A DNA stretch of 64,000 nt from Candidatus Izimoplasma sp. HR2 (GTDB taxonomy: Bacteria > Bacillota_I > Bacilli_A > Izemoplasmatales > Izemoplasmataceae): assembly GCA_000753575.1 (NCBI GenBank), contig JRFF01000022.1:62001-126000 (forward strand), given 5' to 3'. How positions within the stretch are numbered: position 1 is the first letter of the stretch; each line of letters starts with the position of its first letter. Below, one piece after another: positions 29,269 through 33,168 of this stretch. The translations under genes and the position numbers were made by a program. The notes beneath the pieces were generated by a model. That model did no database searches. It saw only the letters and a list, made by a program, of their open reading frames with translations, and was not told the origin of the DNA.

Positions 29269-29296
29269 AAAGACTCAGAAATGAGTCTTTTTTTAT
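29269..29296 (+). terminator. rpsR terminator
   Basis: AAAGACTCA, GAAA, TGAGTCTTT (29269-29290), T-run. Confidence 0.93.
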
Positions 29297-29379: not shown

Positions 29380-31806
29380 ATGAAAACACTTTTTAAAGTT
29401 TTGGTACCAAGTTCTATTTTATTAATACTAGTTATGTTCTTAATATTCCAAGAGAATACTACTTTTGTGATGGTTTTTTCAGTTATACTTTCAATTGGAT
29501 TATTTAATCTATATTTTCAGCTTTTTTTCTTCAACAGAAAAAATCAAAAGATTGTTTGGTTATCAAGAAAATTAAAAGATACTCAAGATGTAGTTGAACG
29601 AAAAGATATAGCTGAGAAGAAAGTTATAGCGGAAATGCCTATGGGTATTGTACTTTATGACGAGTTTTTTGTTGTAAGGTGGGCAAATAACTTTGCTAAG
29701 GATATTTTTGATAATGTTCTTGTTAAAAGAAACTTAGAAACATTATCGAAAGAGATTTTTGAGAATTTATCAAGAAATCATCCTGAAAGTGTTCTGGTTG
29801 TTAAAATTTATACTAATGAATATGAAATCATTTTTGATATCGAAAATAGAGTATTATATTTAACTACTGTTTCTGAACGTGAAGAAATGAGAAGAAAATA
29901 TGAAGCAAATACTGATGTTATCGGTATTATAAATTTAGATAACTTAGATGATGCAATCAGTGTTTTAGATGTATCTGAGAGAAGTTATATTCAAGGTAGA
30001 TACTTAGGTGTACTTGAAACTTGGGCAGATGAATTTGGATTTTATATTGTTCCGTTAACAAATGCCAAATTAATTGTCTTTATGAATAAAGAAAACTTAT
30101 TAGAATTAATTGAAGATGAATTTAAAATTTTGGATAACATTGCTGAAATATCAAGAGATATTGATTTAATGGTTACACTTAGTAGTGGATTCGCTTGTAC
30201 TAATATTAAACTAGATAAATTAGGAGATATTGCTCAAGAAGCACTTGATTTGGCTCTTTCAAGAGGTGGAGATCAAATTGTTGTTAATATTGAGGGTGAA
30301 GATCTTAGATATTATGGTGGTAATACTAATACTGCTGAGAAAAGAACAAGAATTACTACTAGAATAAATATTCAAAGACTTGAACGTTTGTTTGATGAAA
30401 ATAATCGTGTATTTATAATGCCGCATGTTCATCCTGACACTGATGCAATAGGTGCTTCGATGGGGTTATTAAAATTAGCACAAACATTTAATAAAGAATC
30501 ATTTATTATTTTAGATAGAGAAGATTTAGATAAAACTGTTAAGAAGATTCTTCAACTTATTGAATATGAATATATTGGTTTCTTAGGTGCGATAGTATCA
30601 CCAAGTCAAGCTCTAGACATGATTAATAGAGAAGATTTACTTATATTAGTAGATCACCATTCTTATGGACAAACATTAGAAGAGAAAATGATAAATAAAA
30701 CTAAAGACTTAGTTATTATTGATCATCATAGAAAGTTATCTGATGCAATTCCAAATGCATTGATTTCTCATATAGAACCATATGCATCTAGTAGTGTTGA
30801 ACTTGTTACTGAGATGATTGATTTAGCTAGTAAAGATGTTGAGTTAAATCAGTTTGAAGCTACAGTTATGCTTTCTGGTATGATGGTTGATACGAATAAC
30901 TTTATTTATAGAACAGGAGCTAGAACATTTGAAGCGGCTGCTATATTAAGAAAATTTGGAGCAGATACATTTAAAGTTAAGACAATACTTCGTGAAGGAT
31001 TAAGTGAAATAAAACTTAAATCACAATTATTATCACTTGCGGAAGTTATACACCGTAAATTCTCGATTGTTATTGTTCCTAGTGACATTGCTACAAGTAG
31101 AAATTTACTTGCAAAAGTTGCGGATTTGCTGTTAGAAATAGATGACACAGTAGCTTCATTTGCTATTGGATATTTTGAAGAAGGTAAAGTCGGAATTAGT
31201 GCTCGTAGTTTAGAGGGATTTAATGTTCAAGTTCTTATGGAAAAATTTAGTGGTGGTGGACATTTGAATAATGCAGGAGCGCAAATCACAACTAATGATA
31301 TCGCAGAGGTTAGATTAGATCTAATTGATTTATTAAACGAAGCTGTACAGGAGGAAAAACCAATGAAAATTATATTAATTAAAGATGTTAAAGGTCGAGG
31401 TAAAAAAGGTGAAGTTATTGATGTAGCGGCTGGATATGGTAACTACTTATTAACTAGTAAGAATGCTATAGAAGCAACAACTGAAAACCTTCAATCGATT
31501 GAAAGTGAAAAAGCTAAAAAGGAAGAAAAAGAAAAACAATTACTTGATGAGATGAAAAAATTAAAAGAAAAAATTGAAGGTTTACCTGTAAAAGTTTACG
31601 TTAAGATAGGTGAAAACGGGAAATTATTTGGGAAAATAAATTCTAAACATATTACTACAGAATTTAAAAAACAAAACGGATTTGAAATTGATAAAAGAAA
31701 AATTCAATTAAAAGAAAACATATCTACATTAGGTAGTTATAAAATTGATGTTAAATTACATAAAGATGTCACAGCTAAAATTGAAGTATTAGTTGTAGAA
31801 GAATAG
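29380..31806 (+). CDS. gdpP: GdpP-type cyclic-di-AMP phosphodiesterase fused in frame to ribosomal protein L9
   Basis: 808 residues in one uninterrupted frame. Residues 1-661 are a complete GdpP: two membrane helices (about 8-26 and 28-47), a PAS-like domain (about 80-165), a degenerate GGDEF domain (about 175-310) and the DHH/DHHA1 phosphodiesterase (about 340-655; HVHPDTDAIGAS, VDHHSYGQ, IDHHRKLSD, GGGHLNNAGAQ). Residue 662 is the start Met of a complete L9. GdpP degrades c-di-AMP at the membrane; L9 is a 50S protein. In Bacillus the two genes are adjacent but separate. A perfect internal RBS remains at the junction (31349-31365), so free L9 may also be made. dnaB follows 9 bases later. Confidence 0.92.
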   Translation: MKTLFKVLVPSSILLILVMFLIFQENTTFVMVFSVILSIGLFNLYFQLFFFNRKNQKIVWLSRKLKDTQDVVERKDIAEKKVIAEMPMGIVLYDEFFVVRWANNFAKDIFDNVLVKRNLETLSKEIFENLSRNHPESVLVVKIYTNEYEIIFDIENRVLYLTTVSEREEMRRKYEANTDVIGIINLDNLDDAISVLDVSERSYIQGRYLGVLETWADEFGFYIVPLTNAKLIVFMNKENLLELIEDEFKILDNIAEISRDIDLMVTLSSGFACTNIKLDKLGDIAQEALDLALSRGGDQIVVNIEGEDLRYYGGNTNTAEKRTRITTRINIQRLERLFDENNRVFIMPHVHPDTDAIGASMGLLKLAQTFNKESFIILDREDLDKTVKKILQLIEYEYIGFLGAIVSPSQALDMINREDLLILVDHHSYGQTLEEKMINKTKDLVIIDHHRKLSDAIPNALISHIEPYASSSVELVTEMIDLASKDVELNQFEATVMLSGMMVDTNNFIYRTGARTFEAAAILRKFGADTFKVKTILREGLSEIKLKSQLLSLAEVIHRKFSIVIVPSDIATSRNLLAKVADLLLEIDDTVASFAIGYFEEGKVGISARSLEGFNVQVLMEKFSGGGHLNNAGAQITTNDIAEVRLDLIDLLNEAVQEEKPMKIILIKDVKGRGKKGEVIDVAAGYGNYLLTSKNAIEATTENLQSIESEKAKKEEKEKQLLDEMKKLKEKIEGLPVKVYVKIGENGKLFGKINSKHITTEFKKQNGFEIDKRKIQLKENISTLGSYKIDVKLHKDVTAKIEVLVVEE
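31349..31365 (+). promoter_or_regulatory. Internal Shine-Dalgarno and ATG at the GdpP-L9 junction
   Basis: AGGAGG (31349-31354), 8 bases, ATG (31363-31365), inside the fused reading frame. Strength and spacing equal those of ordinary genes here. It encodes QEE of the junction at the same time. Confidence 0.8.
31363..31806 (+). CDS. rplI: 50S ribosomal protein L9, possible separate product by internal initiation
   Basis: 147 residues, the normal length of L9. It begins MKIILIKDVKGRGKKGEVIDVAAGYGNYL, the N-terminal rRNA-binding domain. The long connecting helix (about 45-75, rich in K/E) and the C-terminal domain follow. It shares the frame of the gdpP gene, so translation from this ATG would give a free L9 while readthrough from 29380 gives the fusion. 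Which form enters ribosomes is not visible in the sequence. Confidence 0.7.
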   Translation: MKIILIKDVKGRGKKGEVIDVAAGYGNYLLTSKNAIEATTENLQSIESEKAKKEEKEKQLLDEMKKLKEKIEGLPVKVYVKIGENGKLFGKINSKHITTEFKKQNGFEIDKRKIQLKENISTLGSYKIDVKLHKDVTAKIEVLVVEE

Positions 31807-31815
31807 GAGGGTACT

Positions 31816-33168
31816 ATGGATAGAATAACTCCCCATAATATAGAAGCTGAACAATCAGTACTAGGAAGTGTATTTGTAGACCAAGGTGCAATGAAAACTT
31901 TGGTTGATAAATTAAATTTAGATGATTTTTACAAAAATCAACATAAAGTTATCTTTGCCGCTATGATAGAGTTATTTCAAGACGACATAGATATCGACTA
32001 TACAACTTTATCAAATAAACTAGATTCTAAAGATTTACTTAATGATGCAGGTGGAATCGACTATATTTTAGGGCTAATTAACTATGTACCGTCGATTGTT
32101 AACTTAGTTAACTATATAAACATTGTTAAAGATAAATCGATTACCCGAAGAATTATGGAGGCTTGTAGAGTTATCATTGAAAAAGGTTTTGAAACAGATA
32201 ATGCTATTGATTTTGTGGATAGTTCTGAAAAAATCATTTTTGATATTGCAAAAGAAAGAAGAACTACAGACTTTGTAAGAATTGGTGAAGTTGCTGAACA
32301 AGTTATTAGTAAAACTGAAAGTACTAAAGATAATCAAGGTAAAATTACAGGACTTGATACTGGGTTTGAAGTATTGAATGAGTATATATTAGGACTTCAA
32401 CCTTCAGAGCTAATGATTATAGCAGCAAGACCTTCAATGGGGAAATCAGCATTTGCTCTTAATATAGCTACTAATGTAGCCAAGATGAAAGATAAACCTT
32501 ATGTAGCATTCTTTAGTTTAGAAATGGGTAGTGATCAGTTAGTAAGTAGGATGCTTGCAGCTGAATCACGTGTTCATGGTAATAAAATACGTACAGGGCA
32601 TTTATCAAATACCGAATGGAGACAGTTAAGTTTTGCTCAAGAGATTTTATCAAAACTTAATATTGTATTCGATGACTCAGGTACTGTAAAAATAAATGAC
32701 TTAAGACAAAAATGTCGTAAGTTAAAACAAGAAAAAAGATTAGACTTAGTAGTAGTAGATTATCTTCAATTATTAAGTGGTTCTAACCCAGGTGTTAATA
32801 GGGTTCAAGAAGTTTCAGAAATTTCAAGAACTTTAAAAGAAATGGCACGTGAAATGAAGATACCAGTTATTGCTTTATCTCAGCTTTCAAGAAATGTTGA
32901 AAGAAGAGATGATCGTAAACCTGTTATGGCGGATTTAAGAGACTCTGGATCAATTGAGCAAGATGCGGATATTATCCTTTTCTTATACCGTGATGATTAC
33001 TATAATCCAAAAACAACAGATAGACCAAATCAAGTTGATATCTATATTTCTAAAAACCGTCAGGGAGCCACTAATACAGACGGATTTAGACTTTCATTCA
33101 ACAAGCCGTGTAGTTATTTTGAAAATCTTCATGGTAGTGCTGTAGATGAAGATTTAGATCTTGATTAA
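31816..33168 (+). CDS. dnaB: Replicative DNA helicase DnaB (DnaC in Bacillus)
   Basis: 450 residues. The N-terminal collar domain begins DRITPHNIEAEQSVLGSVF. The RecA-like motor has Walker A RPSMGKSAFALN (about 208-219), Walker B LVVVDYLQLL and SQLSRNVERRDDRKPVMADLRDSGSIEQDAD. No intein. It unwinds DNA ahead of the replication fork as a hexamer. RBS TAGGAGGGTACT. The order gdpP-rplI-dnaB is the Bacillus one, here with the first two joined. Confidence 0.97.
   Translation: MDRITPHNIEAEQSVLGSVFVDQGAMKTLVDKLNLDDFYKNQHKVIFAAMIELFQDDIDIDYTTLSNKLDSKDLLNDAGGIDYILGLINYVPSIVNLVNYINIVKDKSITRRIMEACRVIIEKGFETDNAIDFVDSSEKIIFDIAKERRTTDFVRIGEVAEQVISKTESTKDNQGKITGLDTGFEVLNEYILGLQPSELMIIAARPSMGKSAFALNIATNVAKMKDKPYVAFFSLEMGSDQLVSRMLAAESRVHGNKIRTGHLSNTEWRQLSFAQEILSKLNIVFDDSGTVKINDLRQKCRKLKQEKRLDLVVVDYLQLLSGSNPGVNRVQEVSEISRTLKEMAREMKIPVIALSQLSRNVERRDDRKPVMADLRDSGSIEQDADIILFLYRDDYYNPKTTDRPNQVDIYISKNRQGATNTDGFRLSFNKPCSYFENLHGSAVDEDLDLD

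Follow-up and report, generated by a model that had tools for sequence, protein, structure and literature searches.

A fused gdpP-rplI gene with a conserved internal start signal for ribosomal protein L9 in Candidatus Izimoplasma sp. HR2 and its relatives

A single gene of Candidatus Izimoplasma sp. HR2 probably yields two proteins, a fusion of GdpP with ribosomal protein L9 and free L9, the fusion having arisen once by loss of a stop codon and its L9 tail probably being needed by GdpP. Initiation at 29380 would give a membrane c-di-AMP phosphodiesterase that always carries L9 on a short flexible linker, and independent initiation at an internal AGGAGG-N8-ATG (31363) would supply the ribosomes with free L9 in the greater quantity they need. 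The gdpP stop codon would have been lost once in a common ancestor, with the Shine-Dalgarno (SD) sequence and ATG kept, and GdpP would have come to depend on its L9 tail, probably for structure or regulation through folding, stability, oligomerization or partner contact, with no seat in the ribosome required. Both the presence of the two products in cells and the job of the fused L9 domain are inferred here from comparison of sequences. It is odd to find a membrane signalling enzyme with a ribosomal protein permanently attached throughout three orders of wall-less bacteria, among them phytoplasma-like genomes, and the arrangement gives testable predictions about dual initiation within a coding region, the fusion of overlapping or abutting gene pairs, and gene sharing resolved by duplication. 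It also means that in Acholeplasma and phytoplasmas neither L9 nor GdpP can be knocked out or tagged without affecting the other.

Reading frame, domains and known architecture

The window is the whole stretch of 64,000 nucleotides analyzed here (contig JRFF01000022.1, positions 62,001 to 126,000). Features of the fused gene and its surroundings are as follows.

29269..29290, + strand: terminator-like hairpin upstream (hairpin prediction), parting the fused gene from the rpsF-ssb group
29380..31806, + strand: gdpP-rplI fused frame, 808 codons plus TAG
29383..29530, + strand: pair of N-terminal membrane helices spanning roughly residues 2-50 (AlphaFold helices 2-22 and from 27; hydrophobic sequence)
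29611..29871, + strand: GdpP PAS domain, residues 78-164 (PF21370)
29929..30300, + strand: degenerate GGDEF domain, residues 184-307 (PF24898)
30406..30882, + strand: DHH domain, residues 343-501, with HPDTDA and two DHH motifs (PF01368; conserved columns)
31087..31344, + strand: DHHA1 domain, residues 570-655, with the GGGHLNNAG motif (PF02272)
31345..31362, + strand: junction linker, residues 656-661, ending QEEKP (AlphaFold confidence below 50 at 657-659; without a stop in every relative)
31349..31354, + strand: internal Shine-Dalgarno AGGAGG for L9 (SD pairing energy, conservation)
31363..31365, + strand: L9 internal start codon ATG (ATG, GTG or TTG here in 112/112 single-copy relatives)
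31363..31803, + strand: complete ribosomal protein L9, 147 aa (TIGR00158, 123 bits; PF01281, PF03948)
31816..33168, + strand: dnaB, the next gene; the order gdpP-rplI-dnaB is the Bacillus order

The preliminary description of this DNA had reported an 808-codon frame covering GdpP and L9 without a stop, and this was confirmed: the frame has no internal stops, and Pfam models matched above their cut-offs in the order PAS_GdpP, GGDEF_GdpP, DHH, DHHA1, Ribosomal_L9_N (662-706) and L9_C (724-807). L9 is present in full (TIGR00158 positions 1-148 of 148), with both L9 domains and the conserved residues that define bL9, and it matched the solved structure 1div with E 6e-34. The GdpP part, for which the nearest solved chain was 9n0l (E 6e-77), has two transmembrane helices, PAS, a degenerate GGDEF, and DHH/DHHA1 with metal-binding motifs, and from these domains and motifs the enzyme is a putative GdpP c-di-AMP phosphodiesterase. 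In an AlphaFold model a flexible break, with confidence <50 at residues 657-659, separates the final helix of DHHA1 from L9, which is normally folded; between-domain confidence was low (pTM 0.39) and no docking is therefore claimed. The fused copy is the only L9 gene in the 2.1 Mb host assembly, a search of which in its entirety found no second L9. As a minor point, tight spacing carries on downstream of the fusion, where the AGGAGG of dnaB shares bases with the TAG that ends L9 (31803-31818, TAGGAGGGTACTATG).

A search for the DHH-DHHA1-L9 architecture, proposed in the preliminary description, found it in NCBIfam NF011110/PRK14538 ("putative bifunctional signaling protein/50S ribosomal protein L9"), which has the same full-length architecture as the window protein, so the architecture itself is not new. 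The window protein aligned to positions 52-834 of 838 in this profile with 639.4 bits, below the curated cut-off of 707, and thus has the architecture and sits on its tree but falls outside the formal equivalog cut-off. The record was built from the Acholeplasma/phytoplasma side; it names the fusion and, as far as could be seen, is silent on two products, origin and duplicated lineages. In Clostridia, fusions of IspH with ribosomal protein S1 are annotated, which likewise join an enzyme to a ribosomal protein although the partners differ from GdpP and L9. No paper describing a GdpP-L9 fusion was found in the main texts of the open-licence literature; the tables of Grosjean et al. 2014 (PMC4014445), which are stated to flag gene fusions, may list gdpP-rplI. 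What seems to be new here is the conservation of the dual start, the finding that the fusion arose once, and the duplicated lineages.

Conservation of the internal start signal

The junction AGGAGG-N8-ATG (31349-31365; spacer 8 nt) lies in frame inside the fused frame, and its SD:anti-SD energy of -10.3 kcal/mol is the strongest among 298 internal in-frame ATGs, the runner-up having -7.5. This background consists of in-frame ATGs well inside open frames of at least 200 codons, with statistics taken from the window only, where likely gene starts have a median SD energy of -9.0 kcal/mol. Because the junction stands at the top of the 298 and near gene-start values, the earlier observation that it equals the best start signals of the window is correct and not due to chance.

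The signal is also retained in relatives, as the preliminary description had proposed to check. Across ten families, 112 single-copy fused genes had ATG (108 genes), GTG (three) or TTG (one) as codon 1 of L9, and nothing else was seen; an internal SD and start codon, the mark of a dual-product gene, are therefore both present and conserved. Mean junction SD energy was -9.55 kcal/mol in 111 single-copy fused genes, compared with -1.50 at other internal Met codons and -5.64 after synonymous recoding, in which the same peptide was kept and codons were redrawn by each gene's own codon usage. Observed energies differed from the recoded by Wilcoxon test both over genes (p 4e-18) and over family means (p 0.014). 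The excess over recoding was strong in f1, f3 and f7; there was none in f12, f16 and f32, where a Glu/Gly-rich linker peptide itself forces SD-like codons. Since the signal is stronger than recoding predicts while the peptide that carries it is variable (66 different tetrapeptides), selection would appear to act on the nucleotide-level start signal rather than on the linker peptide. Promoter-like matches in the region numbered 13, compared with 19.2 in shuffles, and so there was no excess to indicate an internal promoter for rplI.

The bacterial genes for IF2, ClpB and CheA have an internal in-frame start and give a long and a short product. The fused gene would resemble them in having two in-frame products, with the difference that here a ribosomal protein, complete in itself, would be the short product, and the long product would be a membrane enzyme from a different pathway.

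Distribution and origin of the fusion

All 58 of the 58 L9-bearing genomes in Izemoplasmatales, the order of the window, carry the fusion (sampled from 28 genera in three families; the frames that are shorter stop at contig ends), as do 39/39 in a second order (families f7 and f18). A third order (f12, f16, f22, f31 and f32) has L9 in 153 of 160 genomes, and all listed matches were fused except for extra free copies, a few frames, 237-563 aa long, being counted here without a contig-end check. This order includes three genomes which we take to be A. laidlawii PG-8A and two phytoplasmas, and their PRK14538 scores are 1391-1516. Genes for gdpP and rplI are separate in mycoplasma-like families, other Bacilli families and Clostridia. 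It had been noted from the outset that a sequencing or assembly error at the junction might conceal a stop codon. No point was found in favor of such an error, which is refuted, and now vanishingly improbable, because about 245 other genomes have the same open frame, including every L9-bearing genome of the order.

A tree of 100 GdpP and L9 proteins placed all 66 fused rows across one branch (SH-aLRT 89), with one gain and no losses, and in the sister family f5, represented by a Candidatus Bathyoplasma contig, the genes are still separate. By this tree the fusion arose once, in an ancestor shared by Izemoplasmatales, Acholeplasmatales and a third order, after which it became fixed; no reversion was seen in the 66 tree tips or in any other genome checked. 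Bacillus, Streptococcus and Clostridioides have the same gdpP (yybT)-rplI order, often with the rplI SD inside gdpP, but differ in having a stop codon between the genes. Co-transcription of gdpP and rplI has been described in S. pyogenes (PMC3711813), and in B. thuringiensis they are reported as one operon (PMC4568413). In the outgroups Clostridioides, Romboutsia, Peptostreptococcus and Sporolactobacillus, the gdpP stop immediately precedes the rplI ATG, the two genes share a frame and the SD lies inside gdpP (the Clostridioides junction reads AGGAGGAAGAATAG directly followed by ATG), so that loss of one stop codon would give exactly the arrangement observed. This comparison favors the original suggestion that the gdpP stop was lost with the SD and ATG kept. 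At three individual loci, in Romboutsia, Peptostreptococcus and Clostridioides (L130, L138 and L141), the TAG of gdpP abuts the rplI ATG in frame, with the SD inside gdpP, and a single stop codon keeps the two genes from being fused. That Clostridia had gained the fusion repeatedly was considered, since tblastn matches seemed continuous, and was rejected: all have a stop before the ATG.

That unfused relatives are often in the same frame and one stop codon away makes fusion an easy accident, and the L9 tail could be a functionless, neutral by-product of stop loss with only free L9 and GdpP of consequence. We regard this as rather unlikely. The 24 linker columns record 521 amino-acid changes by parsimony, on a tree of the fused proteins with 25 substitutions per column, and the linker should then have seen about 54 nonsense events, an expectation based on one-step mutation counts and assuming that stops are tolerated like missense changes; none was seen, and neutrality would not account for this or for the lack of any reversion. 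Neither would it account for the fused copies freed from making L9, described below, which are still full length and constrained. Taken together, the missing nonsense events and this constraint argue that GdpP in the fused clade would need its L9 domain.

Lineages with a second rplI and the role of the fused L9 domain

Natural separation of the two roles is provided by lineages with a second rplI. In genus g90 of f7 (G310, G316 and G322) and in G134 and G627 of f22, the fused gene is followed directly downstream by a free rplI with its own start (loci L192, L193 and L194 in g90, and L195 and L252), so that comparison rests on five genomes and two independent events. On the L9 tree the free and fused copies of g90 are sisters (SH-aLRT 83) and thus look like tandem duplicates within the lineage; in f22 both copies fall within the family, their exact placement not being settled by the tree, and tandem duplication within the lineage is likely there as well. 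Three other genomes do not bear on this count: an apparent duplicate in G629 was rejected as one gene split over two contigs, the second match in G204 was rejected as a 35-codon fragment, and G587, with two similar-scoring matches that were both whole fused genes, was left out as its assembly is flagged 7% contaminated.

Beside a free rplI, the fused copy has lost the internal SD in all five genomes (mean about -0.4 kcal/mol) and the start codon in three of five, all in g90, where it is AAG, AAG and ACT. Together with retention of SD and start in the 112 single-copy genes, this comparison lends support to the two products suggested earlier. A single fused protein from which ribosomal L9 is released by proteolysis would be compatible with low confidence in the linker at residues 657-659 and with a genome having one L9 gene only, but it would leave unexplained both the conservation of the SD and a start-type codon 1 and their loss beside a free rplI, and the variable linker sequence contains no conserved cleavage site; we consider release by cleavage quite improbable.

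Although no longer needed to make L9, the fused domains in duplicated lineages are full length, are recognised by both L9 Pfam models and are predicted to have the L9 fold (TM-score 0.73-0.80 to solved L9s). They are under purifying selection, with dN/dS of 0.32 (G316/G322) and 0.12 (G134/G627) by pairwise NG86 over about 147 codons. At 17 near-universal L9 positions, the fused copies keep 11-12 residues and the free copies 14-16, compared with a mean of 16.7 in single-copy fused genes, and G24 and G90, whose importance is judged from conservation among L9s, were lost from the fused copy in both duplicated lineages. The pattern is as expected if two ancestral jobs were divided after duplication.

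The preliminary description had further proposed that the fused form tethers ribosomes to the membrane or links c-di-AMP turnover to translation, and this part of its interpretation, as opposed to stop loss and two products, did not find support. Docking of the fused form in ribosomes by way of L9 is compatible with the 16.7 of 17 conserved residues kept on average by single-copy fused genes, which free L9 needs too, but G24 and G90 disappeared from the fused L9 in each of the two independent duplications, and Met1 as well in one, without the fusion to GdpP being given up. Loss of these residues from a domain that is still folded and constrained points away from ribosome binding as the retained job, and docking seems unlikely; tethering is possible in single-copy members and is not what the duplicated lineages kept. 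A tentative extension of the two-product explanation would have the L9 domain as an obligatory non-ribosomal module of GdpP that stabilizes or regulates c-di-AMP turnover, one gene elsewhere serving both roles through its internal start.

Two further observations concern the same families. In G139, a genome of genus g90 that is 97% complete, neither L9 nor GdpP was found, whereas the fused gene and free L9 are present in three congeners, which suggests that the whole locus was lost. Finally, many fused proteins of f7 and f18 have VDxQ at the first DHH motif (near residues 443-447 of the L193 protein), where the window protein has VDHH, possibly consistent with a changed metal site or substrate.
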